Assembly: GCF_018070075.1 (NCBI RefSeq) | Contig: NZ_JAGPXE010000004.1 | Span: 558,001 to 622,000, forward strand | DNA: 64,000 nucleotides | Direction of reading: 5' to 3' | From: Saccharopolyspora endophytica | Lineage (GTDB): Bacteria; Actinomycetota; Actinomycetes; Mycobacteriales; Pseudonocardiaceae | Shown: positions 32,005 to 58,960 of the stretch, in pieces | Layout: every line of letters begins with the position of its first letter | How positions within the stretch are numbered: position 1 is the stretch's first letter | Notes under the pieces: generated by a model | Database searches by the model: none | Told to the model about the DNA's origin: nothing | Seen by the model: the letters and a program-made list of their open reading frames with translations, nothing else | Translations under genes and position numbers: made by a program

Positions 32005-32985
32005 CTACTCGAGGATCAGATCGTCGATGGCTCGGCGCGGAGCGGGAACGGTGGGGCCTCCGTAGCCGATCCGCAACAATGCCTGGGGTTGCAGCGTCCC
32101 GCCCAGCAGGTGGCATAGTTCGTCGCGGGTGTCCGGTACCTCGATGACCTCCGAGATCATCGAGGCGGCCAGGCCGTGGGCGGTCGCCGTCAACCAGACG
32201 TTCTGAACAGCCTGCCCGGCTTGTAGTTCGGCATATGGGCTCTCCTGGTGCGTGCACAGCACGACCAGCAACGGGTGGGTCTCGTATTCGACTCCTTCTG
32301 GGCGTGGTGATACCCCTGCCGAGAAGTCCCGGTGCACCCACTGGTCTTGCGGCCCTGGTCGGGGGCCTGCGGCAGAGGTGGGCACTCCTTCCAACGCGTC
32401 ACCGGGCCGGCCCGTCCACGCTGCTAGCTCGGTGCGGAACCGCGAATCGGCCTCCTGCATCCGGTGCGCCCGGTGGACCAAGCCCTCCAGCGTCCCGAGC
32501 TCTCCCGGTGTGACGAGGTGCAGCCAGCACTGCTCGGCTTGCGCGGCGTGGAGCATGTCGTTTCGCTCCGTGGTCGGCACCGGTACGTTGCGGAACGGGG
32601 CGCGGTGGCTGTGCCGCTGAGGAATCGCGGCGTGCAGGCGTAGCGTATCCGGTCGAGGGTCGGTGTGGCCGCCGCTGCGGATCTCCGCGAGCGCGGTGGG
32701 CCCGGCCAAGTGCGGGAGCAAGGTGACGTTCGGTCGGATTCCGGCGCTTTCCAGCGCGAGCCGCAGGTTGAACAACGCGGCGCCGCAGGCCAGGCGGAGC
32801 TCGCGTCCTGCCGGGTCTGCGACCGGCAGGCGGCGTGCCGGGTCGTAGTGCAGTTCGATCTTCTGCGGCAGGATTCGGAACCGCCACGGCTGCGTGTTGT
32901 GCAGCGACGGAGCCAGTCCCGCTCGCCTGATGACCTGCTCGATCTCGGCAGGCGTCAGATCGAGTGCGTTGGAGATCCTGTGCAC
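32005..32985 (-). CDS. Acg-family nitroreductase-like flavoprotein (1 of 3)
   Basis: A 326-residue protein of the Acg-type nitroreductase-like family. Hallmarks are RAGLAPSLHNTQPWRF near residue 25, LRLACGAALFNLRLAL, HRAPFRN and, at the C-terminus, QALLRIGYGGP. In Mycobacterium tuberculosis the relatives Rv2032 (Acg), Rv3131 and Rv3127 belong to the DosR hypoxia regulon; Acg sequesters FMN and lacks classic nitroreductase activity, so enzyme function here is uncertain. GTG 32985 has GGAGG five bases upstream. A GGGAC half-site at 33092-33096 lies about 107 bp before the start. Confidence 0.88.
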   Translation of the reverse strand: MHRISNALDLTPAEIEQVIRRAGLAPSLHNTQPWRFRILPQKIELHYDPARRLPVADPAGRELRLACGAALFNLRLALESAGIRPNVTLLPHLAGPTALAEIRSGGHTDPRPDTLRLHAAIPQRHSHRAPFRNVPVPTTERNDMLHAAQAEQCWLHLVTPGELGTLEGLVHRAHRMQEADSRFRTELAAWTGRPGDALEGVPTSAAGPRPGPQDQWVHRDFSAGVSPRPEGVEYETHPLLVVLCTHQESPYAELQAGQAVQNVWLTATAHGLAASMISEVIEVPDTRDELCHLLGGTLQPQALLRIGYGGPTVPAPRRAIDDLILE

Positions 32986-33341
32986 GGCCACCTCCTGGTC
33001 GGGCGTGCAGTTCGATGGGATGTTGTGACCGTGGCGGAGCTCGATCTGCACCGCCAGGGTCCAACGTCCGTAACGTCGGTGGCTCGCCGTGGGGACTTGG
33101 CACGAGTCGTGACGGCGTTCGGAGCCGACTCGGTCCACCGTCCGGCACAGCGGTTGTCGAGCAACTGGTCTCAGGTCAAGACGGCCTCGGTCGGTGAAGC
33201 CTTCGAGGTTCCCCGCAGGCGGAGACCGGTGCGGGGAGAGGCCCTCGGAGATTCGGGGCGTCGCAGCTGGTTGTTCGCGTCGGCCGGCCGACCGCGGACG
33301 AGAAGCCTCGGAAGAGTGCACGCCGGGAGGTCGACGAGGTG
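32986..33341 (-). other. Gap between nitroreductase and USP genes
   Basis: This 356-bp stretch has no convincing gene. It carries the promoter side of the nitroreductase gene. The sequence GGGGACTTGGCACG at 33091-33104 resembles the GGGAC-N4-GGCAC motif discussed below, with a shorter spacer. Confidence 0.4.
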
Positions 33342-33803
33342 CTATCCCGGGAGAGTTGAGTGCGTCGAACCTGTTTGGGGATCGCGCACGACGACGACGG
33401 GGCAGGTGGCGTGGTCGACGCAGTATCGGGCGGTGGAGCCGAGAAGTGCTTGGGTGAACGTGCCTGTGCCGCGGTGGCCGACGACGAGCAGCTCGGCTGC
33501 CCGGGCGTGGTCGAGGAGCACCTCGGCAGGATGGCCGCCGGCGGCGCGCAGGTGGATGCGCGGGAGTTCGTCTTCGGGCACCGCGGCTCGGACGATGTCG
33601 TGAAGCCAGTTCCTGGTCGCGAGGTCGAGTTGTGCGGCCGTGGGCATCGGCCAGTCGTAGAGCTCGGGCACCGTCCAGGCCATCACGGCGGTGACGGTGG
33701 CTTCGGTTCTTCTCGCTTGGTCGAGGGCCCAGCGCAGCGCCTGCAGAGAAGCGGGTGAGCCGTCGACTCCCACGACGATCGGGCGTTGAGGCGGGGTGTT
33801 CAT
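33342..33803 (-). CDS. Universal stress protein, single domain
   Basis: A 153-residue single UspA domain. IVVGVDGSPASLQALRWAL begins the ATP-binding fold and GHRGTGTFTQALLGSTARY fits the G-2x-G-9x-G(S/T) nucleotide motif, so ATP binding is likely. The C-terminal strand is CPVVVVRDP. USPs of this type are induced by hypoxia or stress in actinobacteria and can modulate growth arrest. It starts 63 bp downstream of the GH65 gene on the same strand and may be read with it. Confidence 0.92.
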   Translation of the reverse strand: MNTPPQRPIVVGVDGSPASLQALRWALDQARRTEATVTAVMAWTVPELYDWPMPTAAQLDLATRNWLHDIVRAAVPEDELPRIHLRAAGGHPAEVLLDHARAAELLVVGHRGTGTFTQALLGSTARYCVDHATCPVVVVRDPQTGSTHSTLPG

Positions 33804-33866
33804 GTCCTCTCCGCGAGGTCTCAGGGCGCGGGACGCGCGCCGTTGGGTGTGGGCAGGCTGGCCGGA

Positions 33867-36290
33867 TCACAGCGGTTCACCGGCGGAGTCCGTCGCGGGG
33901 GTGGCGTCCATCGAGAAGCGGGCGGTTTCGCCTGGCCTGAGGTGGGTGCGCTGCGGTCCGCAGACGCAGGTGATGGTCGGTGCTGGTGGTCCTGGGGCTG
34001 TGCGCACGGCGACCGCGCGTCCGGTGACGCGGATGGTCAGTGGTAGGCCGTGGTAGCGCACTGTCAGTTCCAGGGGACCGAGGTCGGTCGGCCACTGGGG
34101 GTTGAGGTGCAGGCCGTCGGGGCGGATCTCGATTCCGGTGAAGCAGCGTTGCACCAGATCGAGCGTTCCGGTCATAGCTGCCAGGTGGATGCCTTCGGCC
34201 ATGGTGCCGTGCTGGGTGTCGTGCAGGTCGCTGAACAGTGCCTTGTCGAAGAACTCCAGCGCGCGGGGCCGGTCGCCGCGCGCGAGCACCCACGCGTGGA
34301 CGACGGCGCTGAGCGTTGAGCCGTGGCTGGTGCGCGCGAGGTAGTGCTCGACGTTGCCCGGGATGTCGACCATGGGATAGCCGAGGCGGCCGAGGAGCTC
34401 CTCGAGTTCTTCGGCGGAGAGCAGGTAGAACAGCATGAGCACGTCGGCCTGCTTGCTGACCTGATATCGGTTGGGGTCGTCGCCTTCGGCTTCGAGGATG
34501 CGATCCAGGCGTTGGATGTCGCCGTAGCGTCGGCGGTAGGCATCCCAGTCGAGCTCGGCGAGCCGGTGGTATCCCTCGAACTGGCTGAGCAAGCCCTGGT
34601 CGTGGAAGGGGACGAACATGCGGTGCGCGAGCCGGTCCCACCGGTCCATCTCATGGCGCCGCAGGTCGATCTGGTCGATGAGTTCACGTCGTCGCTGGTC
34701 GGGAAGTTCCCGCAGGACTTGGGTCGCCGTCGCGCACAGCCAGGCGGCCATGATGTTGGTGTAGGCGTTGTTGTTGATCCCGGGCTCGTCGTTGCCCGGG
34801 TAGGCCGTGTGGTACTCGTCGGGACCGACGACGCCGCGGATCACGTACCGGTCCCTGCTGCGGTCGTAGGTGGCCAGCGCGGAGAAGAAGCGCGCGATCT
34901 CGCATATGAGTTCGGCGCCCTCGCTGCTGAGGTAGTCGTCGTCTCCGGTGGCGAGGTGGTGGTGGCGTGCGCTGTGGGCGATGGCGAGACCGACGTGGCG
35001 CTGCAGGTGGGTGTGGTCGGGCAGCCAGTGGCCCGAGCGCGGGTTGAGGTGCCAGGAGGGGCTCTCCTCGCGGCCGTTGCTGCCGCTCTGCCACGGGAAC
35101 ATGGCTCCGGTCAGCCCGGCTTGTCGGGCGGCTCGGCGTGCGCGGGGAAGTCGCCGGTATCGGTAGCGCAGCAGCGCGCGCGACAGGCGTGGTAGCCGCA
35201 GGTCGAGCACGGGCAGTACGAACAGCTCGTCCCAGAAGACGTGTCCCCGGTATGCCTCGCCGTGTAACCCGCGTGCGGGTAGGCCGACGTCGAGGTCGGT
35301 GATGGTGGGTGAGGCGGTTTGCAAAAGGTGGAACCTGTGCAGTAGCAGCGTTCTTCGAGCTGGTTCGCTCAGCGAGGTGGTGGTGGAGAACTGGTGGTGG
35401 AGCCGGGACCACGCGATGGCCTGGGTGCGGCACAGCTCGTCGAATCCGGGTGCGTCACGAGCGCTGTCGATGGCTTCGGACACGGGTTCGGTGCTCGCCG
35501 GGTCGCGTGAGGTGTGCAGGGAGACGACCTTCTCCAGCTGGATCTGCATGTCAGGGGTGGCCTCGGCGGCGAATTCGTGGTCTACCCGCCCCTCACCGAG
35601 GTCCGTGACTCGCGTCGGCTGAAGGGAATCATCGGCGAGGAGCCGATTGCGTTGGGCCAGGGCGAGGCGCACGTGAGATTGGGAGGTCAGCGCGTCCAGC
35701 ACCGCCAGCTCCGGGCTTGCCTCGGTGATGTGGTGGTCGATGAGGTGGTGCGCGGCGAGGTCGCGGTAGCGGGCCACGCCGGAGTTGGCGACGGTGCCAT
35801 CGAGGCCGCTGCGGACCGTGACGGTTCCCGACCAATCCTCGGGCTGCAGGGTGGTGTGCAGTCCGGCGAGGTGCGGGTGAGCGAGGTGCACCAGGCGGTG
35901 CTGCACCAGGCGGGTGGTGCGCCGCCGGTGATCGCGGAATCGGAGTCTTCGGATCAGAATCCCGCGCTGGAGATCCAGTTCCTGCTCGGCTTCGACGATC
36001 TCGGCGCGTTCCAGTGTGAACCAGGGGTCGTGGTCGATGCGGAAGGTCACAGGGAGCCAGTTGGGTGCGTTGACGATCGATTCATCTTCGAGCCGGTGGC
36101 CAGCGAGGTCGGTGGTGAGCCGGTTGAAGCATCCGGCGACGTAGGTGCCGGGGTAGTGCACTCCGTCGGCGACGGACTCGGGCGCAGCACCCCGGGTCGC
36201 GAAGTACCCGTTTCCCAGGGTGCACAACGCTTCCCGGCGCCCCTCGTCGTCGGGATCGAAGCCCTGGAACACCATTCGCCACACGGTCAT
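33867..36290 (-). CDS. Glycoside hydrolase family 65 protein (disaccharide phosphorylase type)
   Basis: An 807-residue GH65 protein. The order is typical: an N-terminal beta-sandwich starting WRMVFQGFDPDDEGRREAL with LGNGYFATRG, then the alpha6/alpha6 barrel with AYRGHVFWDELFVLPVL. The general acid is the glutamate in GVVGPDEYHTAYPGND, and KQADVLMLFYLL binds phosphate. Family members phosphorolyse trehalose, maltose or kojibiose. The start ATG 36290 overlaps the stop of the upstream USP gene by 4 bp. In M. tuberculosis Rv2006 a GH65 domain is fused to HAD and OtsB domains; here those lie in a separate gene at 42492-44072. Confidence 0.92.
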   Translation of the reverse strand: MTVWRMVFQGFDPDDEGRREALCTLGNGYFATRGAAPESVADGVHYPGTYVAGCFNRLTTDLAGHRLEDESIVNAPNWLPVTFRIDHDPWFTLERAEIVEAEQELDLQRGILIRRLRFRDHRRRTTRLVQHRLVHLAHPHLAGLHTTLQPEDWSGTVTVRSGLDGTVANSGVARYRDLAAHHLIDHHITEASPELAVLDALTSQSHVRLALAQRNRLLADDSLQPTRVTDLGEGRVDHEFAAEATPDMQIQLEKVVSLHTSRDPASTEPVSEAIDSARDAPGFDELCRTQAIAWSRLHHQFSTTTSLSEPARRTLLLHRFHLLQTASPTITDLDVGLPARGLHGEAYRGHVFWDELFVLPVLDLRLPRLSRALLRYRYRRLPRARRAARQAGLTGAMFPWQSGSNGREESPSWHLNPRSGHWLPDHTHLQRHVGLAIAHSARHHHLATGDDDYLSSEGAELICEIARFFSALATYDRSRDRYVIRGVVGPDEYHTAYPGNDEPGINNNAYTNIMAAWLCATATQVLRELPDQRRRELIDQIDLRRHEMDRWDRLAHRMFVPFHDQGLLSQFEGYHRLAELDWDAYRRRYGDIQRLDRILEAEGDDPNRYQVSKQADVLMLFYLLSAEELEELLGRLGYPMVDIPGNVEHYLARTSHGSTLSAVVHAWVLARGDRPRALEFFDKALFSDLHDTQHGTMAEGIHLAAMTGTLDLVQRCFTGIEIRPDGLHLNPQWPTDLGPLELTVRYHGLPLTIRVTGRAVAVRTAPGPPAPTITCVCGPQRTHLRPGETARFSMDATPATDSAGEPL

Positions 36291-36727
36291 CGGGAGTCGT
36301 CGCGCACCACGACCACCGGGCAGCGCGCATGGTGCACGACGTGCTGACTCACCGAACCCAGGAGGGCTTCGGTGAACCCGCCGTGCCCTCGGTTGCCGAC
36401 CGCGATCAGGTCGGCGTCCAGCTCCTCGGCCAGGTCCAGCAGAGCACGTGCCGGGTGACCGTTGGCGACGTTCTTGCCGACCGCGAGGTCGGAGTCCGGG
36501 TCGAGGACTTCGGCGATGGTCTCGTCCAGGCTGGCAGCGGTGCGCCGGGCGATGTCGTCGCTGTCGGGGACCTCCCAGTTGTAGATCAGCGGGACGTCCC
36601 AGGTCATGAGAGTGGCGAGAGTGCCGCCGAGCTGTTCGGCATGCCAAGCCGCCCAGCGCAGCGCCGACTTCGACGCGGGCGAGCCGTCCACGCCGACCAC
36701 GATCGTGTACTGGTGACGTTGCTCCAT
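36287..36727 (-). CDS. Universal stress protein, single domain
   Basis: A 146-residue UspA domain. YTIVVGVDGSPASKSALRWA opens it and GNRGHGGFTEALLGSVSQHV gives the ATP motif; the end is CPVVVVRDDSR. ATG 36727 is chosen because GGGAGG lies seven bases before it; an upstream in-frame GTG or ATG region would add 36 unlike residues. The stop overlaps the GH65 start, so the USP and the sugar phosphorylase are translationally coupled, a pairing worth noting. Confidence 0.92.
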   Translation of the reverse strand: MEQRHQYTIVVGVDGSPASKSALRWAAWHAEQLGGTLATLMTWDVPLIYNWEVPDSDDIARRTAASLDETIAEVLDPDSDLAVGKNVANGHPARALLDLAEELDADLIAVGNRGHGGFTEALLGSVSQHVVHHARCPVVVVRDDSR

Positions 36728-37007
36728 CGCAGCCTCCCAGGTGTGTCGGATACCCGGCCCGTGTGTCGACGAACCGCAGTTCGACCCGACGTGCCGGTCT
36801 GGGGCCGATACAGGCGCGCCTGGGTTTGCTCGCACGGCGGCCCCACTGTGATGGTGGGGCTTCGCGGACTACGTGGCATGGTCGAAAGTAATCAATTTCC
36901 AGTATGTTTCGTGATCACGGTAGCGAAAGGGCAGAAATGCCCTGTTGGTGATCGACGCGAGTGCGCACGGTGAGTCCGGGTCGGAGTTCGTCGTGGGGAG
37001 CGGGTGA

Positions 37008-37616
37008 ATGAAGCAGCGTTGCCGATCTGCGGGTATCAGCTGGCTCGTCCGGGCCTTGGGGATGAGGCCCAACCCGGTGCGACGTCCGGTCGACCGCGGG
37101 GTGGCCGTGGCGGTGCTCGGACTGCTCGTCGTCGCTCTGACCGTCGTGCCAGCGCTGGCCTTGTCGACCGGGAAGGCCGAGTACCTTGCCCAACGACGCG
37201 AAGCCGCCGCCGCGCTGAGCAGTCACCACGTGGTCGACGCCGTCGTGCTCACCACCCCTGAGATGGTCGGCTCCGAACCGGGCGGAGGCGCGAGCGTACG
37301 CGCTGATGTCGGGTGGACGGGTCATGACGGTCACCCGCGCGCTGAACGCGCGGAGGTGCCCTCCAGCAGCCGCGCCGGTAATCGCGTGCCGGTGTGGGTC
37401 GACGCTGCCGACCGCGTGACACCGCCCCCACCGACTGAGGTCGTCAGCCGTGCGTCGGCGACGGGCACCGCGGTCGGTGTGCTCGCATTGGGTCTCCTCG
37501 GCTGTGGCGCGCTCACGAAGACCGTTCGCGCGGTGGCCGACGGTTGGGCCCGACGCCGCTGGGAGTGGGAGTGGGCGCGCGTCGAGCCGGAGTGGTCCCG
37601 GCAGGGGCCCGGATGA
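37008..37616 (+). CDS. Rv1733c-like transmembrane protein
   Basis: A 202-residue protein with two membrane helices, one near residues 30-52 (AVAVLGLLVVALTVVPALAL) and one near 155-172 (GVLALGLLGCGALTK), and an external loop between them. The phrase NPVRRPVDRGVAVAVLGLLV and the VPVWVDAADRV region resemble M. tuberculosis Rv1733c, a DosR-regulon membrane antigen with conserved NPL-R--DR and VW-D motifs. Function is unknown in both. GGGGAGCGGG precedes ATG 37008. It is divergent from the USP/GH65 operon. Confidence 0.75.
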   Translation: MKQRCRSAGISWLVRALGMRPNPVRRPVDRGVAVAVLGLLVVALTVVPALALSTGKAEYLAQRREAAAALSSHHVVDAVVLTTPEMVGSEPGGGASVRADVGWTGHDGHPRAERAEVPSSSRAGNRVPVWVDAADRVTPPPPTEVVSRASATGTAVGVLALGLLGCGALTKTVRAVADGWARRRWEWEWARVEPEWSRQGPG

Positions 37617-37727: not shown

Positions 37728-38720
37728 ATGGACGAAAATGAGGGCACCGACGACCGACCGTGGTCGCCGGAAGAAGCCGCGACCATCGCCCGCGCTGTGA
37801 ACCGCGCACCGTCGGTGCACAACACGCAACCGTGGTCGCTGTCGATGCGCGATCGGGTGGTTGAGTTGCACGAGCAGCACGACGCCGCACCGTCCCGGCA
37901 CGACCCGCAGGGCAGGGACCGAGTGATCTCATGCGGAGCTGCGCTGACCAACCTCGTCCTCGCGGTGCGCAACCTGGGGTGGCGAGCGGAACTCGCGTTC
38001 GGCGGCGACGTCGGACCGCTGGTCTCGGTCACGGGCAGCAGCCGGCTGCCGCCCACCGATGCCGAGCTCCGCCGGTACGAGGCGATCGCACACCGCGCCA
38101 GTCATCGTCGGCCTTTCGACCCGCACCCGATATCCGAAGCTGACGAGCGAGCACTGCTGAACGCTGCGAACAGCGTTCCCTCGGTGCGAGCCCAGTGGAT
38201 CAGCGGAAGCGAGGAAGCGCTGCACGTCGCGCGGTTGCTGACCTACGCAGCCCGCGTCCAGCACGCTGACGCGTCCTATCAACGGGAATTGGCGAGCTGG
38301 ATCGTTCAACACAATGAATCGGAGCGCAGGGGAGTTCCCTCCGAGGCGCTGGGCGCGCAGGGACTCGGTGCGGTCGGATTGGTCAGCGGAGCGACCCACC
38401 TGCCGGACGAAACCTGGCTGGCAGCGCGTGTCGAGGCGGAATCGGTGCTGGTACTGAGCACGCCCGATGACGGAGTCCGTGCCCAGCTCAACGCAGGTGC
38501 CGGCTTGGAGAGCGCATGGCTGGAGGGCACCCATCGCGCGCTGGGGGCCTCAGTGATGACGCAATGCCTGCAGCTCAGCGAGATCCGAGAAGGGCTCGCG
38601 CAGCGTGGACACGGGGCCGACGCGGTTCAGGCGCTGATGCGCTTCGGGCATCCGGTCGCGAGCGTGCCGCGCAGCGCGCGGCGTCCATTGGAGGGAATCT
38701 TCCACGACGACCCGCGGTGA
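37728..38720 (+). CDS. Acg-family nitroreductase-like flavoprotein (2 of 3)
   Basis: A 330-residue member of the same family as the protein at 32005-32985. RAVNRAPSVHNTQPWSLSM near residue 25, VISCGAALTNLVLAVRNLG and HRRPFDPHPIS match, and the C-terminal LMRFGHPVASVPRSARRPLE is the expected end. It probably binds FMN as a dimer; redox activity is not assured, because Acg relatives lack part of the active site. It is 112 bp after the Rv1733c-like gene on the same strand. Confidence 0.88.
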   Translation: MDENEGTDDRPWSPEEAATIARAVNRAPSVHNTQPWSLSMRDRVVELHEQHDAAPSRHDPQGRDRVISCGAALTNLVLAVRNLGWRAELAFGGDVGPLVSVTGSSRLPPTDAELRRYEAIAHRASHRRPFDPHPISEADERALLNAANSVPSVRAQWISGSEEALHVARLLTYAARVQHADASYQRELASWIVQHNESERRGVPSEALGAQGLGAVGLVSGATHLPDETWLAARVEAESVLVLSTPDDGVRAQLNAGAGLESAWLEGTHRALGASVMTQCLQLSEIREGLAQRGHGADAVQALMRFGHPVASVPRSARRPLEGIFHDDPR

Positions 38721-38732
38721 GGTCCGCGTCAC

Positions 38733-39545
38733 CTAGTGGACCACGACCACTGGGCACGGGGCATGGTGCAGGATCCCGGATGCAACGGAACCCAGGAAGA
38801 GGCCATCGAACCCGCCGCCACCTCGATGCCCTACGACGACCAGACGGGCTTCGCGCGCGGCATCGACCAGTCCAGCCACCGGGTGACCTCGGTGGACGAC
38901 CTCCTGGATGCGGACTTCCGGGTGTTCCTCCCGCAGCGGCTTCGTCTGCGTCGTGAGCGAGCGTTCGACTTCGTGCTGCACCCGCTCACGGTCGGGTGGG
39001 GTGAGCGGCAGGGCCAGCAGCCCCTCTTCGTGCCACGCGCGCAGCACCACCAGATCCGCACCCGCGCGGGACGCTGTCGCGAGGGCGAAGCGAACGGCGT
39101 CCTGCCCGCACTGGGAGTCATCGGAACCGACCACCACCGGGCCGGAGTCAGGAATGCTGTTGCGCACGACGGCGACCGGGCACCGGGCGTGGACGGCCAC
39201 ACTCGAACTCACGCCACCCAGCAAGGCGTCGGTGAAGACACCGTGCCCGCGCGCTCCCAGGACCAGGAGCTGAGCCGTCTCGCTCCGGCGCAGCAGCTCC
39301 TGGACGGGATGGCCGGCCGCGGTCTCCGAGGTCACCGCTATCCCCGGGGTGCGTGCACGGCACTGCTCGGCGATCTCGTGCACGGCTCGCTCGCCCTGTG
39401 CTGCGCGTGCCGGATCGTCGTTGACGAAGACCAGGTGAAGCGCGGCGCCTCGGCGACCAGCCTCCGCGGACGCCCAATGAGCGGCCCTGACGGACCCCTC
39501 CGAACCGTCCACTCCGACCGTCACCGGCTGGTTCGGTACCGTCAT
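38733..39545 (-). CDS. Universal stress protein, tandem domains
   Basis: A 270-residue protein of two UspA domains, about 1-130 and 140-270. The first has VTVGVDGSEGSVRAAHWAS and GARGHGVFTDALLGG; the second has PVVVGSDDSQCGQDAVRFAL and GHRGGGGFDGLFLGSVASGI, so both nucleotide motifs are largely kept. Tandem USPs are characteristic of the mycobacterial DosR regulon (Rv2005c, Rv2623). The stop is 12 bp from the convergent nitroreductase gene. Confidence 0.92.
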   Translation of the reverse strand: MTVPNQPVTVGVDGSEGSVRAAHWASAEAGRRGAALHLVFVNDDPARAAQGERAVHEIAEQCRARTPGIAVTSETAAGHPVQELLRRSETAQLLVLGARGHGVFTDALLGGVSSSVAVHARCPVAVVRNSIPDSGPVVVGSDDSQCGQDAVRFALATASRAGADLVVLRAWHEEGLLALPLTPPDRERVQHEVERSLTTQTKPLREEHPEVRIQEVVHRGHPVAGLVDAAREARLVVVGHRGGGGFDGLFLGSVASGILHHAPCPVVVVH

Positions 39546-39682: not shown

Positions 39683-40558
39683 TTACGCGGTGCGGTGGCG
39701 GGTACGCACGACGAGGACCGGGCTCCTGGCGTGGTGCAGGAGCGCCTGGCTCGTCGAGCCGAGCAGCATGCCGCGGAATCCGCCTCTCCCGCGGGTTCCC
39801 ACCACGACGAGCTGAGCGCGGTCGCTCCAGTCGAGTAGGACGCTCGGTGGACGGCCCTCGACCGCGACGCGCTCGACGTCGACATCGGGGTGGTTCTCCG
39901 CACGGCCCGCGAGGCTTTCGGCCAAGACTCGCTCCCCATCGCCGCGTTGCTCGTGCGCTTTGCCGATACCGACCTCCCGGATCGAAGGGGCCTCGCTTAC
40001 GTGCACGGTCACCAGGCGTGCCTTCCGCCACGATGCCTCGTCGAAGGCAGCGTCGAGCGCGGCCGTGCTGGTCTCGCTGCCATCGACGCCAACGACCACC
40101 GGGCCGTCAGCGATGTTGGGAGTGCGCACGACGGCCACCGGGCTGGAGGCGTGCGCGGCGACGGAGTGGGCCGTCGAGCCCAGCAGCATCCCGCTGAAAC
40201 CACCGCGTCCGGAGGCGCCGAGGGCGATCATGCGAGCGGTCTTCGACATCTCCAGCATGTACGAGATCGGTGGTTCGCGTACGAATTCGGTGTGCACGGA
40301 GACCTGGGGGTCGATGGTGCCGACGCGGTGCAGTCCATCGCGCAGTTGCGCTTGGGCGAGCTGGTCGATCTCCTCGAACACTTCGGGCAGGTACGGCAGC
40401 CCAGGTCCGTAGAAGCCCTGGATGTAGGGCGCGGTGGACGAGACCAGCCGCAGTGCGAGATTGCGTGACGACGCTTCCTGCGCCGACCAGACGACTGCGT
40501 GGAGCGCCTGCTCGGAGCCGTCGACACCGACGACGATCGTGTTGCCCAGATCGGTCAT
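39683..40558 (-). CDS. Universal stress protein, tandem domains
   Basis: A 291-residue tandem USP. Domain 1 has NTIVVGVDGSEQALHAVVWS and GASGRGGFSGMLLGSTAHSV; domain 2 has GPVVVGVDGSETSTAALDAA and GTRGRGGFRGMLLGSTSQAL. Both fit ATP-binding USP motifs. ATG 40558 is preferred over ATG 40564 because GGAGGGG lies seven bases before the former. A GTCCC at 40619-40623, GGGAC on the coding strand, is about 60 bp upstream. It probably forms a unit with the downstream USP at 38733-39545. Confidence 0.92.
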   Translation of the reverse strand: MTDLGNTIVVGVDGSEQALHAVVWSAQEASSRNLALRLVSSTAPYIQGFYGPGLPYLPEVFEEIDQLAQAQLRDGLHRVGTIDPQVSVHTEFVREPPISYMLEMSKTARMIALGASGRGGFSGMLLGSTAHSVAAHASSPVAVVRTPNIADGPVVVGVDGSETSTAALDAAFDEASWRKARLVTVHVSEAPSIREVGIGKAHEQRGDGERVLAESLAGRAENHPDVDVERVAVEGRPPSVLLDWSDRAQLVVVGTRGRGGFRGMLLGSTSQALLHHARSPVLVVRTRHRTA

Positions 40559-41643: not shown

Positions 41644-41837
41644 TGCGGATGCGTCCGACGCGGTGGATGCGGCCGGTGGCGTTCTGCCCCGACGCGACTC
41701 TGTCCACCTGAGGCGGGCTGTGGCGCAGCTGGATGAGGTGGAGGCGCGGTCCCGAGGTCCAGGCGGTTGAGCACGAAGTGCTCGACCCTGATCCCGGGTG
41801 TGTCGCGAGATCCGTTCTCGAGTTGCGGGAGGGCGGC

Positions 41838-49238: not shown

Positions 49239-49322
49239 TGGCCGCTCTCATCGTCCGAGCGCACATTAACCGGGTGCGGTTCCGCGATGGAGACGGACCG
49301 TCGGGGACAACTGGAGGTATCG

Positions 49323-50816: not shown

Positions 50817-51141
50817 GACGCTGAGCCTGGTGATCCCGGCCTTCCTGCTGATCTTCTCCGCCGGCTACTTCCTGACCTCGCAGACGAACCCGATGGCGTT
50901 CTCCGAACCGCTGACCCGCAGCGACGCCCTCTACTTCACCATCACCGTGTTCGCCACCGTGGGTTTCGGCGACATCCACCCCGTCGCTGAGCCTCTACGC
51001 CTCGTCGTCGCCATCCAGATGCTCGCCGACCTGCTCCTCCTCGGACTCGTCCTGCAAGCCGTCCTCAACGCCATGCGCAGAGGACAAGAAAGAACCGCAG
51101 CAGCCGGTCCCGGCGCGAACAGCCGCGCGGACAAGACGTAA
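50734..51141 (+). pseudogene. Two-helix K+ channel protein, 5' end lost at the same junction
   Basis: From about 50734 the sequence encodes GLAAITGLIVWQIRAIVRSR, a linker, the first pore helix SLVIPAFLLIFSAGYFLTSQ, the selectivity filter ATVGFGDIHP and the last helix MLADLLLLGLVLQAVLNAM. The filter TVGFGD is intact, so it belongs to the two-transmembrane potassium channel group. Homologues begin with an additional N-terminal helix pair that is missing here. GTG 50761 could restart translation and produce a channel-like core, so residual activity cannot be excluded. Confidence 0.75.
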
Positions 51142-51337: not shown

Positions 51338-52186
51338 ATGCGGGAAGTCGTGGGAGTGGATGGCTCCGAGCCTGCGCTGGAAGCCGTGCGCTGGGCGGCT
51401 GTGGATGCCCGGCTGCACCGGCGTTCGCTGCGGCTGGTCTGCGCTGTTCCCCAGGCTCCGGAAGCTGGACCGGGCCTGGACGAGATCAAGGCCGAGCGAC
51501 CCCGTTGGCTCTCGGAGGCGGTGACCGCTGCGCGCGCCGCTGCCGAAGGTGTGGAGTTCGAGCAGATGCTTCGGCATGGAATGCCGGGAGAGGTGCTACT
51601 CGACGAGTCTCAAGAGGCTGAGCGGCTCGTCGTCGGTACGCGAGGGCTCAACGAGGTCACCGGGGTGCGGTTGGCGCTGGGGTCGACGGCGGAGCTGGTC
51701 GCGATGCGGTCTCGCTGTCCGGTGGTGGTCGTCCCCGACTCGCCCGGTCGAGAGGACGCGCGCACCGGGCCGGTCATCGTGGGTGTTGACGGGTCGAGGG
51801 TGGGGGAACCCGCGCTCGGAGCGGCCTGCGAGGAGGCGTCGTTGCGTGGAGCGCCGCTCGTCGCCGTGCACGTGTGGAGCGATGTGGCCACCGATGAGTG
51901 GTTCGGCCCTGGTTCTGCTGACTGGGAAGCAATCAGGGTTGACCAGGAGCGCGTGCTGGCGGAGCGGTTGGCGGGATGGGAAGCGAAGTACCCGGACGTC
52001 TCGGTGGAACGTGTCGTTGCGCGCGATCGACCGGTTCGCTTCCTAGTTGAGCACGGTGCGCGGGCGCAGTTGATCGTGGTGGGCAGCCGCGGGCGCGGCG
52101 GGATCACCGGGATGCTGATCGGGTCCACCAGCCGTGCCCTCCTGCACTGCGCCCCGTGTCCCGTGCTCGTGGTGCGTGCCCCCTGA
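51338..52186 (+). CDS. Universal stress protein, tandem domains
   Basis: A 282-residue tandem USP. Domain 1 starts REVVGVDGSEPALEAVRWAA and has GTRGLNEVTGVRLALGSTAE, a modified nucleotide motif. Domain 2 has GPVIVGVDGSRVGEPALGAA and GSRGRGGITGMLIGSTSRAL, which fits the ATP-binding consensus. ATG 51338 has GAGG eight bases upstream. The candidate DosR-type box at 51199-51212 lies upstream. Confidence 0.92.
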   Translation: MREVVGVDGSEPALEAVRWAAVDARLHRRSLRLVCAVPQAPEAGPGLDEIKAERPRWLSEAVTAARAAAEGVEFEQMLRHGMPGEVLLDESQEAERLVVGTRGLNEVTGVRLALGSTAELVAMRSRCPVVVVPDSPGREDARTGPVIVGVDGSRVGEPALGAACEEASLRGAPLVAVHVWSDVATDEWFGPGSADWEAIRVDQERVLAERLAGWEAKYPDVSVERVVARDRPVRFLVEHGARAQLIVVGSRGRGGITGMLIGSTSRALLHCAPCPVLVVRAP

Positions 52187-52230: not shown

Positions 52231-52509
52231 TTAGGGTCTCAGCTGCCGGTTGCGTTCGTGCCACGACGCGTAGATCAGCAGCAAGGCAGCGGTGAGGCCC
52301 GCGACGAAGAATTCCGTCGCCTGGCCAAGTATCAGGCACAGAACGGCGAACAGCACCGCCAGGACGCCCAGTGCCCGCCACAAGGTCATCCACCGCATCA
52401 GCTTCGTGATCGTGCGAGGTGTTGTCATCCTGTGGGCGAATTCTGGATCATCGGAAGTGAGCTGGCGTTCGATCTTCTTGAGGCGACGGCGTTCACGGCC
52501 GCGGGACAT
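52231..52509 (-). CDS. DUF3040-domain membrane protein
   Basis: A 92-residue protein. The N-terminal ERRRLKKIERQLTSDDPEFA matches the DUF3040 signature (E--L--IE--L--DDP-FA). Two membrane helices follow at about 45-60 and 65-82. The family is restricted largely to actinobacteria and has no assigned function. It is convergent with the tandem USP gene, 44 bp away. ATG 52509 has GGGGGAAATC upstream. Confidence 0.85.
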   Translation of the reverse strand: MSRGRERRRLKKIERQLTSDDPEFAHRMTTPRTITKLMRWMTLWRALGVLAVLFAVLCLILGQATEFFVAGLTAALLLIYASWHERNRQLRP

Positions 52510-52897: not shown

Positions 52898-53890
52898 ATG
52901 GCCGATGTGGAACCGGAGCCGCTGACCGCGAGCCGCGATTCCCTGGGGATCGCGGTGCAGCACGCCTCGATCAACATTCCGATCGCGGCTCCTGGCGACT
53001 CCGTTGACGAGCTGTTCGCCAGCCTGCGCCTCCGAAGGTTCGACAGCGCGGCCGTCGTAGCGGTGTGCGAGAACGACCGGCTGCTGGGGTTGTTGACCGT
53101 GGAGAGGTTGCTGGCGGCACGGATGGGTGCGCGCGTCACCGAGGTGATGGACGGGCATCCGCCGGTCGTTGCTCCGGGGACCGACCAAGAGCGAGCGGCA
53201 TGGGAAGCGGTGCGACACGGGGAGCCGGGTTTGGCGGTCGTCGGACCGTTGGGCCGGTTCGTCGGGGTGATTCCACCGCAGCGCCTGCTGTCCGTGCTGT
53301 TGGAGGAACATGATCAGGACATGGCGCGGCTGGGCGGGTTCCTGGACTCGTCGGCCTCGGCCCGCAGCGCCTCCACCGAAGGCGTCGGACGCCGGCTGTG
53401 GCACCGCTTGCCCTGGCTGCTGCTCGGCCTGGCCGGTGCCTTGTTCGCGGCGCTGATCGTGGGTGCTTTCGAACGCCAGATGGAGCGCCAGGTGCTGATC
53501 GCGTTCTTCGTCCCGGGGGTGGTCTACCTCGCCGATGCCATCGGGACTCAGACCGAGGCCCTGATCGTCCGCGGCTTGTCCGTCGGTGTCAGCATTTCCC
53601 GGGTCGCGCTTCGCGAAATCGTTACCGGTGGCATGCTCGGGCTGCTGCTGGCCGTCTTGGCGCTGCCACTCGTGGCACTGATATGGAACAACGTCGAGGT
53701 GGCGCTGGCGGTCTCGGTGGCCTTGTTTGCCGCGGCGTCGGTGTCCACGTTCGTCGCGATGGCCTTGCCGTGGCTGTTCCACCGCCTGGACAAGGACCCG
53801 GCCTTCGGTTCTGGCCCGCTTGCCACCGTGGTGCAGGACCTTCTCTCGGTGAGCATCTACTTCGTAGTGGCGACCGCGGTCGTCACCTGA
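52898..53890 (+). CDS. mgtE: MgtE-like magnesium transporter with CBS domains
   Basis: A 330-residue transporter. Residues 20-145 form a CBS pair (LFASLRLRRFDSAAVVAVCE and PGLAVVGPLGRFVGVIPPQR). The membrane part has five helices, starting RLPWLLLGLAGALFAALIVG and including FFVPGVVYLADAIGTQTEAL, an ion-pathway motif, and DPAFGSGPLATVVQDLLSVS. The N-domain of classical MgtE is absent, giving a short version of the family. It should import Mg2+ (or related divalent ions) across the membrane, gated by the CBS region. Confidence 0.9.
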   Translation: MADVEPEPLTASRDSLGIAVQHASINIPIAAPGDSVDELFASLRLRRFDSAAVVAVCENDRLLGLLTVERLLAARMGARVTEVMDGHPPVVAPGTDQERAAWEAVRHGEPGLAVVGPLGRFVGVIPPQRLLSVLLEEHDQDMARLGGFLDSSASARSASTEGVGRRLWHRLPWLLLGLAGALFAALIVGAFERQMERQVLIAFFVPGVVYLADAIGTQTEALIVRGLSVGVSISRVALREIVTGGMLGLLLAVLALPLVALIWNNVEVALAVSVALFAAASVSTFVAMALPWLFHRLDKDPAFGSGPLATVVQDLLSVSIYFVVATAVVT

Positions 53891-53999: not shown

Positions 54000-54977
54000 A
54001 TGTCGTACTCGCCGCTCAGCGCGCAGGATGCGCGCGAAGTGCGTGGGCTGGCAGGTCGCGCACCTTCGCTGTTCAACCTCCAACCGTGGCGGTTCCGCGA
54101 AGCCGCAGGCGCGCTGGAGTTGTTGCTGGACGGGACGGTGGCGCTGCCGGCGACGGACCCGGACCGCCGCGAGTTGGTGATCAGCTGCGGAGCTGCGCTG
54201 CACCTCGCGCTGTTGTCCCTGCGCGCGCGGGGATGGCGGCCTCGGGTGCAGCGACTGCCGAGCGAGCATGATGCCGATCTGCTGGCGCGGATAGACGTGT
54301 TGGATGGCAAGGAGGACCCCGCGCCGTCCGATCGCGCGCTCGTCCGTGCCGCGCAGCGACGCCACGTCGATCGCCGCCAGTACGCCCCGACCGCGGTGCC
54401 GCAGGAAGTGCTCCTCGACCTCGTCTCGGAGGACGCGGTCGCGAGCGTGTCGGTGCTTACGGGTGATCAGCGGTATGCGGTCGCACAAGCGTTCACCAAG
54501 GCAGCGATGATCCATGCCGGGTCCGATGCCTACCGCGCCGAGTTGGCGGCCTGGTCAGGGCTGACGCCGCCCGCCGCGAGAGGCGTCCTGGATGAGAGCG
54601 CACCGTGGCACGGCCAGCGTTACGGAGACGTTGTCGTGCGGGACTTCGGCTACGCGGAGACGGTGGTGCGCGAGGCCGGTTCGGCGCTGACGGCGGGAAG
54701 TCTGCTGCTGATCAGCACCGGCACCGACGATCGCGACGCCCATCTGCGTGCGGGGGAAGCGCTGGGCGCGGTGTTGTGCCAGGCGGAGCTCGGCGGATTG
54801 TCGAGCTGCCCGCTCAGCGAGGCGTTCGAGGTTCCGCGCACGCGGGCGGATGTCCGGCACCAGGTGCTGGGGGACGAGGGGCATCCGCAGATGGTTGTCC
54901 GCGTCGGCTGGCCGCAGTCGGCCGACCTGCCCGCGGGGACAGCGCCGATAGCGCCTGAGCTCGGCCGCGAGGCGTGA
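54000..54977 (+). CDS. Acg-family nitroreductase-like flavoprotein (3 of 3)
   Basis: A 325-residue Acg-type protein. LAGRAPSLFNLQPWRFREAA replaces the common HNTQPW with FNLQPW. VISCGAALHLALLSLRARG, RRHVDRRQYAPTAV and the terminal VVRVGWPQ agree with the family. It is more divergent than the two other copies. GGAGGAGGG precedes ATG 54000. CGGACAGCCGGCGG at 53901-53914 is a weak match to the box motif 86 bp before the start. Confidence 0.86.
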   Translation: MSYSPLSAQDAREVRGLAGRAPSLFNLQPWRFREAAGALELLLDGTVALPATDPDRRELVISCGAALHLALLSLRARGWRPRVQRLPSEHDADLLARIDVLDGKEDPAPSDRALVRAAQRRHVDRRQYAPTAVPQEVLLDLVSEDAVASVSVLTGDQRYAVAQAFTKAAMIHAGSDAYRAELAAWSGLTPPAARGVLDESAPWHGQRYGDVVVRDFGYAETVVREAGSALTAGSLLLISTGTDDRDAHLRAGEALGAVLCQAELGGLSSCPLSEAFEVPRTRADVRHQVLGDEGHPQMVVRVGWPQSADLPAGTAPIAPELGREA

Positions 54978-55073: not shown

Positions 55074-56345
55074 TCACATCACCAGCACGATCCCGCCCGC
55101 GACCGCGGCGGCCGGCAGGACGAGCAGCACCGCAAGTCGTGTCGCGAAGCGCAGGCCACCTGCGACGGCAGCCAGCACGATCTTGATCAGGGTATTGCTC
55201 AGCAGCGCCATCCCCACGCCCAGCAACGCCACGCTGATCGGAACGACGGTGCCGCCCAGCGAGGACGCGGCCACTGATGCGGAGTGCGCGTCGGCGAGCC
55301 CTCCCACGAACGCGGCCGCGAGGACACCCCGCGCGCCGAGCAGCGCCGCAGCGGCGCGGGTAGCGGTCAGCAGCAGGATCAGCACCACCAACGTCAGCGA
55401 GATCGTGACGCGCAAGGACAGCGGGCGCTGAAACGCCGAAGGCGCATCGGGGGTGTCCGTCCTCTCCGAGCCGGAGTCACCTCCGGTGCGCCGGGTGTGC
55501 CAGGCGAGCCACCCGGCTTCGCCCAGCAGGACGGCCGCACCGGCGGCCGATGCCGGAAGCAGCCGGACCGCGATGGCCGGATTTACGACGGCGGTCAGCG
55601 CGATGAGCTGCACCAAGGTCGCGACGCTGGCTGTGAGCACTGCGGGCAGGACCGCGTGCCGCACGTTCCCGCCCGTTCGGCGGGCGAGCACGACGGTGGT
55701 CGCCGAGGCGGATACGAATCCTCCGAGGAAGCCGACGAGCACCAGTCCCTGACGTTCGCCGAGCGCGCGCACGGCCACGTAGCCGGCCCAGCCGATGAGC
55801 GTGATCGCGATGACCAGCAACCAGATCCGGGACGGGTTGAGCACCCCGTAGGGGCCCAGGGGCCGGTCCGGCAGCAGTGGGAAGATCACGAACGCGACGA
55901 CGAACAGTCTGATGGCGTCCGCGATGTCGTCGTCGGTGACCAAGCGCGTCGCGAAGCGGTGCAGTGGTCGCTTCGCGGCCAGCAGTGCCACCACGGCTAC
56001 GGCGATGGGCACCGCCCACGTCGGGTGCGACCACGCCAGCGCCCCCAACAGCACGGCGACGATCGCCGCGACCTCGGTCGTCGCACCCAGGTCCGGTTCC
56101 GAGGAGATTTGCGCGCTGAGCACGTACCAGGCGATCACGAGAAGGCCGGCCGCTCCGACGACGATGAGCACCATTGCCGGGGCCAGGGCAGCGGCCACCG
56201 CGCCCACGAGGCTCAACAGCGAAAAGGTCCGAGAGCCTGCCGGGCGCACCGGTTGTCCGGCCGTGCTGTGCTCCCGTTCCAAGCCCAGTAGCAGCCCGAT
56301 CGCCAGCGCGGTGGCGAAGTGAACGAGGGCCGTCGTGGTCTCCAC
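55074..56345 (-). CDS. MgtC/SapB-family membrane protein with DUF4010
   Basis: A 423-residue integral membrane protein of about 12 helices. The N-terminal MgtC-like part reads VHFATALAIGLLLGLEREHS then GSRTFSLLSLVGAVAAAL. The C-terminal DUF4010 part includes GLVLVGFLGGFVSASATTVV, LLGEAGWLAWHTRR and the repeat AAFVGGLADAHSASVAASSL. MgtC-type proteins contribute to growth at low Mg2+ and inside macrophages; the DUF4010 fusion is a common but uncharacterised form. A candidate DosR-type box is at 56510-56523, upstream. Confidence 0.9.
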   Translation of the reverse strand: METTTALVHFATALAIGLLLGLEREHSTAGQPVRPAGSRTFSLLSLVGAVAAALAPAMVLIVVGAAGLLVIAWYVLSAQISSEPDLGATTEVAAIVAVLLGALAWSHPTWAVPIAVAVVALLAAKRPLHRFATRLVTDDDIADAIRLFVVAFVIFPLLPDRPLGPYGVLNPSRIWLLVIAITLIGWAGYVAVRALGERQGLVLVGFLGGFVSASATTVVLARRTGGNVRHAVLPAVLTASVATLVQLIALTAVVNPAIAVRLLPASAAGAAVLLGEAGWLAWHTRRTGGDSGSERTDTPDAPSAFQRPLSLRVTISLTLVVLILLLTATRAAAALLGARGVLAAAFVGGLADAHSASVAASSLGGTVVPISVALLGVGMALLSNTLIKIVLAAVAGGLRFATRLAVLLVLPAAAVAGGIVLVM

Positions 56346-56548: not shown

Positions 56549-56800
56549 TCACGACGGCCGCACCTCGGGATCGGTGTCGCGCTGGATCCGAGCGCCGATC
56601 TTGAGGTGGTGCGGGAGGCTGTGCTCGCGGTGCGCGTCCGGCCCCGGGTACAACAGGCTCACGTGGTCATCGTCGAGCCACCGCACGAGGTACGGCGGTT
56701 CGCCGTTCGGGCCGCGAACCTCGATGATCTGTCCCTTGTAGCGGTGGTCGCCGAGGTGGGCACCCTCGACGATCAGCCATTCGCCGACTTCCGCGCGCAT
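56549..56800 (-). CDS. DUF1918-domain protein
   Basis: An 83-residue cytoplasmic protein consisting of one DUF1918 domain. AEVGEWLIVEG starts it, with GQIIEVRGPNGEPPYLVRWL and the conserved DDDHVSLLYPGPDA. It has an SH3-like small beta fold expected from the family and no catalytic residues are evident. DUF1918 proteins are recurrent in actinobacterial hypoxia/stress clusters. ATG 56800 has GGGAG seven bases before it; an in-frame TTG two codons earlier is less likely. Confidence 0.9.
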   Translation of the reverse strand: MRAEVGEWLIVEGAHLGDHRYKGQIIEVRGPNGEPPYLVRWLDDDHVSLLYPGPDAHREHSLPHHLKIGARIQRDTDPEVRPS

Positions 56801-56921
56801 GATCAAGCTCCCGTATCCGGCGCTGCTGTCTACCAGCTTCGCCGAGGCGCTGGGTACTCAGCAGAGTCGAAGGGCTCTCACCACGACTCCTCGACTGCCG
56901 CGCGGGTGTGGGATCGTGGCG

Positions 56922-57326
56922 CTACTTGCCTTTGCGTGCGACTGGTATTTCCTTGGTCTCCGGTGTTTCTCTGCGAGGCATGTGGATGGTCACGATGCCG
57001 TTGTCGTAGTCGGCCTTGATGCTCTCGACGTCGCAGCCCGAGGGCAGCAGCATCGTGCGGCTGTAGGAGCCGTAGTAGAACTCGCTGTGCGCTTCCGCTC
57101 GTTCTTCTTGCCTGCGCTCGGCTTCGACCCTGAGCTGGTCGCCCTCAACGTTGATGTGGATGTCGTCAGGATCGACGCCGGGAAGCTCGCAGCGAACCAC
57201 GAAACTGCCTTCCTCGGTGAACGCTTCTATGCGCATCGCGTGCCGTTCGCCGAACGGCCATTCGCTCTCCAGCATGCGCAAGAGATCCGGCAGGCCCCGA
57301 GCGGGGCGAGGAATCAAGTTACTCAT
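56922..57326 (-). CDS. Hsp20/alpha-crystallin small heat shock protein
   Basis: A 134-residue small heat shock protein. The alpha-crystallin domain spans about 30-125, with MRIEAFTEEGSFVVRCELPG, VDPDDIHINVEGDQLRVEAE, FYYGSYSRTMLLPSGCD and YDNGIVTIHMPRR. It ends in a basic tail EIPVARKGK with the I-P-V motif used for assembly. It holds unfolded proteins without ATP. M. tuberculosis HspX (Rv2031c), the best-known DosR target, is the functional analogue. GGAGGGACACC precedes ATG 57326. Confidence 0.93.
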   Translation of the reverse strand: MSNLIPRPARGLPDLLRMLESEWPFGERHAMRIEAFTEEGSFVVRCELPGVDPDDIHINVEGDQLRVEAERRQEERAEAHSEFYYGSYSRTMLLPSGCDVESIKADYDNGIVTIHMPRRETPETKEIPVARKGK

Positions 57327-57643
57327 GGTGTCCCTCCTGGGTGACGACCGCTTTCTCGTCCAGCATGGGACAAGCCCTCGGCACCCGCAGAGGCTGAATC
57401 CGGCGGAGGAGTGACGAGATGGGGAGCGGCCAATGCCGCTTCACATCTTGGGCAACGCTCCGCACACGCGTGGGCAGCCTCGAGCAGTGTGGAAGCGACC
57501 GGTGCGGTGAGATCGGCTGGTCTGGGAACGTCTCACGGACCCCAAGGGACTCTCCGGTGGCGGACGGGAGGTGCCATGCTGCGATCAAGTCCCTCGACAG
57601 GTAGAGGGATAGCGGGACCCTGCTCTGAGGACTCGGGGGAGCT
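57327..57643. other. Divergent promoter region between Hsp20 and a USP
   Basis: A 317-bp region with no coding frame I can support. It contains GGGAC three times: near 57368, at 57546-57550 (85-98 bp before the USP start, in GGGACTCTCCGGTG) and near 57614. The density of GGGAC fits a regulatory region, though no copy has a complete right half. Confidence 0.4.
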
Positions 57644-58081
57644 ATGGAAGGCAGCAAGCAACGGATCGTCGTCGGCGTGGACGGATCGGCGGGTTCTCGG
57701 GCGGCGCTGCGGTGGGCGTTGGGCTATGCCGAGGGGTGCGGAGGACGTGTCGTGGCGGTGTTCGCGTGCGGGGTCCCTGCGCTGATCGACGTCGCGTTGA
57801 TGATGCCGGAGGAGGAGCGCGTCCTCACAGTCGGGGAGCGGGAGTTGCGGAAAGCGGTCGATGAGACGTATGCGGAATCGGACACCGGAATTCCGGTGGA
57901 GCGGCGGGTCGTGCGGCAGGATGCCGTTCGGGCGCTGCTGGATGAGGCGAGGGATTCGGACCTGCTGGTGGTGGGGCGCCGTGGGCACGGGAGGTTCGCG
58001 CAGGTGCTGCTCGGATCGGTGAGCTGGCACTGCGTCAATCATGCGCCGTGCCCGGTGGTCGTCGTCAGCGGTCCGGGTTGA
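57644..58081 (+). CDS. Universal stress protein, single domain
   Basis: A 145-residue UspA domain. KQRIVVGVDGSAGSRAALRW and GRRGHGRFAQVLLGSVSWHC give both halves of the nucleotide site; the end is CPVVVVSGPG. It is closest in the window to the USP at 44454-44894. It lies 42 bp upstream of the polyphosphate kinase gene on the same strand, so the two are probably co-transcribed. Confidence 0.93.
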   Translation: MEGSKQRIVVGVDGSAGSRAALRWALGYAEGCGGRVVAVFACGVPALIDVALMMPEEERVLTVGERELRKAVDETYAESDTGIPVERRVVRQDAVRALLDEARDSDLLVVGRRGHGRFAQVLLGSVSWHCVNHAPCPVVVVSGPG

Positions 58082-58123
58082 GTTCGTCTGGCGCCATTCT
58101 GGGGGGCACCGGGGGAGGAGGCG

Positions 58124-58960
58124 GTGACCGTGGTCGGCGGTGAGCAGGGCGGGGACGATGCGGGCGTCGGCCCGGAGCGGTTGGCACGTGGGGTCTATGA
58201 GAAGGAGCTGTTCCGCCTCCAGGCTGAGCTCGTCAAACTGCAGGAATGGGTTCGGCAGGAGGGGGCCCGGCTGGTCGTCGTGTTCGAAGGGCGCGACGCG
58301 GCCGGTAAGGGCAGCGCGATCAAGCGGTTCGCCGAGTACCTCAACCCGCGCGTGACGCGCATCGTGGCTCTGCCGGCTCCAACGGAGCGGGAGCGCGGGG
58401 AATGGTACTTCCAGCGCTACGTTGCGCAGCTGCCCGCTGCTGGTGAGATCGCGCTGTTCGACCGCAGTTGGTACAACCGCGCGGGGGTGGAGCGCGTCAT
58501 GGGGTTCTGCACGGAAGAAGAGCATCGACGGTTCTTGCGGCAGTGCCCGGTGTTCGAGCGGTTGCTGATCGAGGACGGGTTTTTGCTCCGCAAGTACTGG
58601 TTCTCGGTGAGCAGGGTCGAACAGCGACGACGTCTGCGCAAGCGCAGCGAGGACCCGATGCGGCGATGGAAGTTGTCTCCGCTGGACTTGGAGTCGATGA
58701 CGCGGTGGGAGCAGTACTCGGCTGCGCGCGATGAGATGTTGGACGCGACCGACACCCCGTTGTCCCCCTGGTACCTGGTGGAAAGCGATGACAAGCGTCG
58801 TGCGCGGATCAACCTGATCGCGCACCTGTTGTCGACGGTGCCGTACTACGAAACGCCCCGTCCCCGATTCGAGCTGCCCGCTACGCCGCCGTCGACCGAA
58901 CACCGCCGACCACCTCGCGAGCGCTACAACTACGTGCCGGATCATTCCGCATCGCTCTGA
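58124..58960 (+). CDS. ppk2: Polyphosphate kinase 2 (PPK2) family protein
   Basis: A 278-residue PPK2. The Walker A motif is FEGRDAAGKGSAIKRFAEYL (about 60-79), Walker B and lid are ALFDRSWYNRAGVERVMGFC, and RKYWFSVSRVEQRRRLRKR gives the basic polyphosphate channel. PPK2 enzymes transfer phosphate between polyphosphate and nucleotides, usually making GTP or ATP. This one-domain length fits the class that phosphorylates NDPs. Pairing with a USP suggests energy supply during stress. The start GTG 58124 follows GGGGGAGGAGG. Confidence 0.93.
   Translation: MTVVGGEQGGDDAGVGPERLARGVYEKELFRLQAELVKLQEWVRQEGARLVVVFEGRDAAGKGSAIKRFAEYLNPRVTRIVALPAPTERERGEWYFQRYVAQLPAAGEIALFDRSWYNRAGVERVMGFCTEEEHRRFLRQCPVFERLLIEDGFLLRKYWFSVSRVEQRRRLRKRSEDPMRRWKLSPLDLESMTRWEQYSAARDEMLDATDTPLSPWYLVESDDKRRARINLIAHLLSTVPYYETPRPRFELPATPPSTEHRRPPRERYNYVPDHSASL

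Follow-up and report, generated by a model that had tools for sequence, protein, structure and literature searches.

The DosR (DevR) regulon of Mycobacterium tuberculosis comprises universal stress proteins (USPs), Acg, Rv1733c, a single protein joining HAD-OtsB and GH65 parts, Rv2004c-type proteins, Hsp20 and DUF1918. To our knowledge, little is settled about what these effectors (USPs, Acg flavoproteins and the Rv1733c and Rv2004c proteins) do, since they tend to be studied with the DosR/DosS pair (DosRS) in control, in hypoxia. In Streptomyces coelicolor, the OsdR (SCO0204/SCO0203) region likewise clusters USPs, nitroreductases and stress genes; there an osdR-osdK pair lies within the cluster, and eight predicted OsdR sites account for 20 of 22 genes, the nitrate reductase genes among them (PMC5069765). 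Here, we analysed 64,000 nt of Saccharopolyspora endophytica (the window; positions 558,001 to 622,000 of contig NZ_JAGPXE010000004.1, or C29:558001-622000 of the source assembly G000, which comprises 7.17 Mb in 34 contigs and is 99.5% complete). A block of these gene families at window positions 32005-58960 had been described, in an original prediction, as the hypoxia/nitric oxide (NO) dormancy block of this organism.

We propose that the block is probably a maintained dormancy effector set carried on a tRNA-Pro island, uncoupled from DosRS and with its operator gone. It shares its family content with the M. tuberculosis regulon; it differs in being compact and located on a tRNA island, in that DosR, DosS and DosT were not found, and in that the DosR palindrome is unenriched. 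Compared with the S. coelicolor region, the block has no pair, no sites and no nitrate genes, nitrate respiration genes being absent from the called block genes (compare SCO0213-SCO0219). Pfam and NCBIfam searches placed the originally named families, those of DosR and OsdR regulons, at about the claimed positions, and their clustering is far from random. Ten USP proteins carry 15 PF00582 domains of 27 in the whole genome, a concentration within 27 kb with a binomial chance of about 7e-30, and three of the five Acg family members (NF047509) of the genome also lie here. The statement that DosRS is not in the window likewise stands, as neither PF00196 (LuxR-type) nor PF07730 (HisKA_3) has a match across it, and the scanned block proteins include no recognisable transcription regulator.

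Full-length DosS, taken as at least 865 bits against a three-row profile, was found in 14 of the 22 Saccharopolyspora genomes compared (the source assembly included), and one of these proteins (G092, L071) matches solved DevS and DosT domains. The same search returned no full-length DosS in G000, G001, G026, G064, G082, G088, G090 or G093; the sole profile hit in G000 (207 bits) spans profile positions 215-576 and leaves the first GAF domain uncovered. DosR was searched with a five-row alignment of dosR genes lying near the Rv2004c-like kinase in loci of other genera, one of which matches DevR (3c3w) at 9e-112. Among the matches listed, on which the class assignment rests, strong DosR matches occur in all 22 genomes, and gene context together with a tree whose outgroup branches are long separates three classes. 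Canonical dosR (class a) lies near dosS at 16 loci (L064, L067-L081), with extra copies in the blocks of G094, G091 and G087 (termed in-block as no kinase adjoins these three genes in the stretches read), and clusters with Mycobacterium and Pseudonocardia DosR (92/82). Class b (dosRb) sits between a CBS gene and a HAMP/GAF hybrid kinase gene and forms a single clade (100/100), while class c adjoins sigR wherever sigR fell within the stretch. The only DosR-level matches listed for G000 are one of class b (C23:447099-447743, 323 bits) and one of class c (C18:10704-11351, 312 bits), the next scoring 181 bits. G000, G001, G026, G064, G082 and G088 form one clade in the dosRb tree (99/99), all DosRS-less, and three of the six have the block when presence is scored by the Rv2004c-like kinase; G001 has a copy of this kinase at 47% (L111). 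On these profile matches, neither DosS nor canonical DosR was found in G000 or in the assemblies of its clade-mates. In 21 of 22 dosRb loci (L089 being the exception; L051:11216-11240 in G000), the CBS-dosRb operon is preceded by a GTTT-N-GGGTA element resembling SigB/SigF promoters, with a gap from GTT to GGGTA of mostly 17-18 bp, and dosRb is possibly under general-stress sigma control.

The operator of the switch also appears to be missing. Of the 25 distinct sites in Table 1 of PMC5069765 (predictions, some of them tested there), 17 went into our OsdR matrix and eight less regular ones were excluded. With a threshold of 9, chosen before the intergenic scan results, 21 intergenic sites occur in 32.5 kb from seven DosRS-bearing species versus 2 in 22.3 kb from three DosRS-less species, and none occurs in the window block, coding or intergenic. 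With a threshold of 14, chosen afterwards, 15 sites (one, L056:17241, coding by gene calls) occur in 180.6 kb, in all seven DosRS-bearing species, versus none in 144.0 kb of the three DosRS-less species and none in the island. Locus L020 (S. sp. HNM0986), kept out of this comparison of seven with three species, has no box of at least 14, and two (L024 and L039) of the eight other-genus loci scanned at that threshold have none. In an unguided count of palindromes with 6-bp arms over eight stretches from six DosR-bearing species, the top rank goes to AGGGCC-N4-GGCCCT, with 10 intergenic copies and 1 in 134.9 kb of coding DNA, and nothing comparable was found in the DosR-less stretches. L017, treated as DosS-bearing with contig coordinates the same as G095:C120, stands outside this count. 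The DosR palindrome is unenriched, GGGACNNNNGTCCC with at most one mismatch occurring twice in the window against 7.5 expected. We conclude that the OsdR/DosR operator is, as far as these matrices and palindromes tell, absent from the block and present in equivalent blocks of DosRS-bearing congeners. The G094 block (L053) illustrates the contrast: it shares the sulfur operon, PPK2, USPs, Hsp20, kinase and Acg genes, but has dosR between its USP9 counterpart (the best match of USP 9, followed by dosR) and the kinase, three OsdR boxes of at least 14 and a full DosS elsewhere in its genome. Since the oxygen-sensing switch and its DNA sites are apparently gone, the block must presumably be run otherwise. 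Two other palindrome results were set aside. Discovery by expectation-maximization ended in codon periodicity, even in DosR-bearing positive-control blocks. TCCCG-N4-CGGGA, which ranked first among unguided 5-bp palindromes in the DosR-less blocks (9 intergenic copies, 1 coding), was rejected; every site there carries a single mismatch and three are the same spot at the DUF3040 start.

Sequence comparison shows that the block is carried by a 37.2-kb genomic island, which is inserted in the tRNA-Pro(GGG) gene at its 3′ end. The left direct repeat (31456-31499) is the last 44 nt of this tRNA gene, and 42 of 44 positions are identical in the right repeat 37.2 kb away, at 68671-68714 in window numbering and outside the window (C29:626671-626714). 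G088 (L109) has the empty site, in which the tRNA is followed directly by the DNA found right of the second repeat in G000; G001 (L107) has the same join, with its tRNA segment, about 400 bp long, in the opposite orientation between the flanks. The median GC content at third codon positions (GC3) is 0.812 in the block (27 genes) versus 0.928 in the left flank (25 genes; p 1.5e-9). The 3′ end of a tRNA gene, the direct repeat, the empty site in relatives and distinct codon use are all shared with tRNA-borne genomic islands. In G026 (S. rhizosphaerae), a block with extra segments occupies the equivalent place, split over two contigs, and the own block of G088 (S. ipomoeae) lies about 110 kb from its empty site. 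Next to the second repeat, on its right (69103-69522 in window numbering), lies a recombinase-like fragment that has no Pfam hit and resembles one beside the G001 tRNA. In G064, a different set of genes, for sugar transport and metabolism, fills the interval from the same tRNA-Pro to a copy of the right-end sequence about 13 kb further on (C18; L108:3080-16501), so the tRNA looks like an insertion hotspot. G026 also has a second, diverged dormancy block (C31:60000-79900, L065), whose kinase match is reported with one stop.

Beyond the block, the island carries TauE and rhodanese genes, two metallo-beta-lactamase (MBL)-rhodanese genes, CsoR-type and ArsR-rhodanese regulators, major facilitator superfamily (MFS) genes and a methyltransferase gene. 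In G094 (L053) and Streptomonospora (L021), TauE-rhodanese-MBL genes likewise border DosR-bearing blocks; because the sulfur set recurs beside dormancy blocks in other taxa, the arrangement suggests that persulfide handling is linked with dormancy genes. The CsoR/MBL-rhodanese/YgaP/TauE set (59196-62848) occurs three times in G000, the others being on C15 and C3. The island would bring ready-made dormancy and stress effectors (USPs, Acg flavoproteins, a small heat-shock protein, trehalose and polyphosphate enzymes and persulfide handling), and DosRS, the oxygen/NO sensor, would have ceded their control to some other system.

The block genes are open in the window and, from their substitution ratios, mostly under purifying selection. 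We compared nonsynonymous and synonymous substitution rates (dN/dS) with G026 for 23 of the 28 called block genes, all 23 having a G026 match and USP3, FHA, a 41-residue open reading frame (ORF), AI-2E and the channel gene being excluded. In 17 of the 23, dN/dS is below 0.28, and the highest value, 0.62, belongs to an 85-residue gene with few changes. The dS values form a mosaic, with 0.02-0.19 at both ends and 0.3-0.6 between GH65 and USP7.

Several observations weigh against this reading. The assembly is a draft in 34 contigs, so the absence of DosRS is not proof, though six related assemblies concur. All three DosRS-less blocks belong to a single clade, and the operator contrast may therefore reflect one event. 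Enrichment per species is clear against scrambled matrices in only three of the seven DosRS-bearing species (4, 0 and 1 of 200 scrambles as high for G094, G091 and G087), with 12 to 38 of 200 equally high in the remaining four; enrichment at the canonical dosR-dosS loci is weak (11 hits, a number that 17 of 200 scrambles reach), and with 5-bp arms the AGGGCC-N4-GGCCCT box drops to ranks six and seven. An exact genome-wide search for AGGGCCGNNCGGCCCT was discarded as an operator test: only one of the 22 genomes contains the sequence, and 13 of the 14 with DosRS lack it, which makes the search uninformative. Paralogues b and c retain a DosR-like recognition helix, and they might bind degenerate sites. 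For the island, GC3 is also low right of the second repeat and, in contrast to other tRNA-borne islands, no recombinase or integrase was recognised among the scanned island proteins, which did not cover every small ORF. Sigma-B-type promoters are at best weakly enriched in the block.

Our leading candidates for what now runs the block, put forward tentatively, are general-stress sigma promoters of the GTT-N-GGGTA type and/or DosR paralogue b; SigR, CRP and SigH/E-type patterns number 0, 0 and 1 in block intergenic DNA. A takeover by the paralogue would keep hypoxia/redox control through dosRb and its CBS and hybrid kinase partners, acting on altered half-sites such as GGGACNNNNGGCAC. DosRb is the top DosR match in the genome among those listed, its top PDB match is DevR and it keeps the AEKTIKNYVS helix, while all three exact copies of GGGACNNNNGGCAC in the window are block-intergenic (41407, 49225 and 51199). 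With one mismatch, however, this half-site occurs 14 times against 14.8 in shuffles, which makes it weak as a replacement operator. The pentamer GGGAC reaches a density in block intergenic DNA (23 in 5.5 kb) that is 1.7 times its density in block coding DNA (53 in 22.0 kb), but 19 of the 23 lie on one strand regardless of gene direction and GGGAC ranks tenth among 20 anagrams. As dosRb is found in 22 loci of the genus, including where DosRS exists, it has its own job, and we consider such a takeover rather unlikely. Control of the island by a general-stress sigma factor of the SigB/SigF type is, in our view, about equally doubtful. G..T-N14-16-GGGTA occurs nine times upstream of genes in the G026 and G088 loci, where it ranks top among 20 anagrams (the rest average 2.1), and three times in the window block versus none in the left flank, and the dosRb operon has the related element described above. 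Yet the three window hits tie with three anagrams, and of the nine others one (L110) falls beyond the block and some correspond to window hits as orthologues; the stricter GTT-N14-18-GGGTA is as frequent or more so in DosR-bearing blocks (7 versus 4), and the pattern was picked after the dosRb promoter had been seen.

Two further explanations invoke an overlooked DosRS or a decaying island. An ordinary DosR regulon whose DosRS was missed in assembly or is too divergent would agree with the draft state of the assembly and with the family content, which is that of DosR regulons, but full-length DosS is missing in six related genomes while scoring at least 865 bits in 14 of 22, and the operator is missing too, making this most improbable. 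The same results leave the original view of a hypoxia/NO block under a DosRS encoded elsewhere unsupported: the operator is absent, the block lies on a tRNA-Pro island, and the whole-assembly search for a pair returned no full-length DosS and, among the matches listed, two DosR-level paralogues of other classes. A silent, decaying passenger island would fit the accessory location, the shortened AI-2E gene, the lack of a recognised recombinase among the scanned proteins, and in G026 the one stop in the USP5 match and an MgtE match spanning 267 of 330 residues; the open window genes and dN/dS well below 1 in 23 of 23 comparisons make it very unlikely. We retain the reading of maintained effectors that are no longer coupled to DosRS.

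An accessory island that carries DosR-type effectors without their DosRS coupling would be a variant of the known dormancy regulons. Our literature search, which missed most subscription journals, found no dormancy block without DosRS and no Saccharopolyspora DosR system. This soil genus offers a natural test, with some species having switch and operators and sister species having the effectors and neither, which addresses whether effector expression needs to be gated by oxygen/NO and how a regulon is rewired. More speculatively, the island may represent a mobile dormancy cassette, in which the effector half of the DosR regulon and a persulfide-defence operon move between actinomycetes on tRNA islands with their operators erased, rewired to a general-stress sigma factor or another DosR-family sensor system, so that dormancy genes become independent of oxygen/NO sensing.

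Table 1 Predicted features of the window discussed in the text (gene starts were predicted with a codon-position score).
Feature	Coordinates	Strand	Basis
tRNA-Pro(GGG), left island end	31425..31499	+	ARAGORN
Acg family FMN-binding oxidoreductase 1	32005..33000	-	NF047509 315.6 bits; start uncertain
USP 1	33342..33803	-	PF00582
GH65 family glycoside hydrolase/phosphorylase	33867..36275	-	PF03632/PF03636/PF03633
USP 2	36287..36730	-	PF00582
Rv1733c family membrane protein	37008..37616	+	NF050032 113 bits, cut-off 80
Acg family 2	37728..38720	+	NF047509 216 bits
Tandem USP 3	38733..39545	-	PF00582 x2
Tandem USP 4	39683..40564	-	PF00582 x2
FHA protein	40895..41332	+	PF00498
USP 5	41835..42380	+	PF00582
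HAD (beta-PGM type)-OtsB fusion	42492..44072	-	TIGR00685 above cut-off, TIGR02009 slightly below; Pfam
USP 6	44442..44894	+	PF00582
Tandem USP 7	45010..45912	-	PF00582 x2
Tandem USP 8	46670..47554	+	PF00582 x2
Rv2004c-like kinase with C-terminal AAA domain	47663..49114	+	PF13671
DUF7144 membrane protein	49320..49790	+	PF23636
Shortened AI-2E transporter overlapping K+ channel-type gene	50052..51141	+	PF01594 model positions 4-236/327; PF07885
Tandem USP 9	51338..52186	+	PF00582
DUF3040	52231..52509	-	PF11239
CBS-MgtE transporter	52898..53890	+	PF01769, PF00571
Acg family 3	54000..54977	+	NF047509 247 bits
MgtC/DUF4010 membrane protein	55074..56345	-	PF02308, PF13194
DUF1918	56549..56806	-	PF08940
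Hsp20	56922..57326	-	PF00011
USP 10	57644..58081	+	PF00582
PPK2	58124..58960	+	TIGR03707 369 bits
TauE, YgaP-like rhodanese, MBL-rhodanese, CsoR type, MFS	59196..63993	-	Pfam; within island

HAD-OtsB, GH65, PPK2, Hsp20, DUF1918, DUF3040 and MgtE were identified by Pfam, and the Rv1733c family match exceeds its cut-off. The FHA, DUF7144 and MgtC/DUF4010 genes, the shortened AI-2E transporter gene, which stops early at about 250 residues, and the K+ channel-type gene go beyond the list of the original prediction. Within the family, the HAD-OtsB protein has a scattered distribution, occurring in 9 of 80 genomes. The Rv2004c-like block kinase is matched by mycobacterial loci at 42-46%. The best NCBIfam match of the FHA protein is of the OdhI/GarA type, below cut-off. 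In 11 of the 16 canonical dosR loci (L068-L073, L075-L077, L080, L081), an FHA relative immediately precedes dosR; the island keeps its FHA gene without dosR, and the protein may belong to the Dos system. Right of the island, a small Cys- and Thr-containing, leader-like peptide (L116:11151-11321; C29:633151-633321) is encoded beside large genes and an ATP-binding cassette transporter, a possible lanthipeptide-type cluster as judged by eye.

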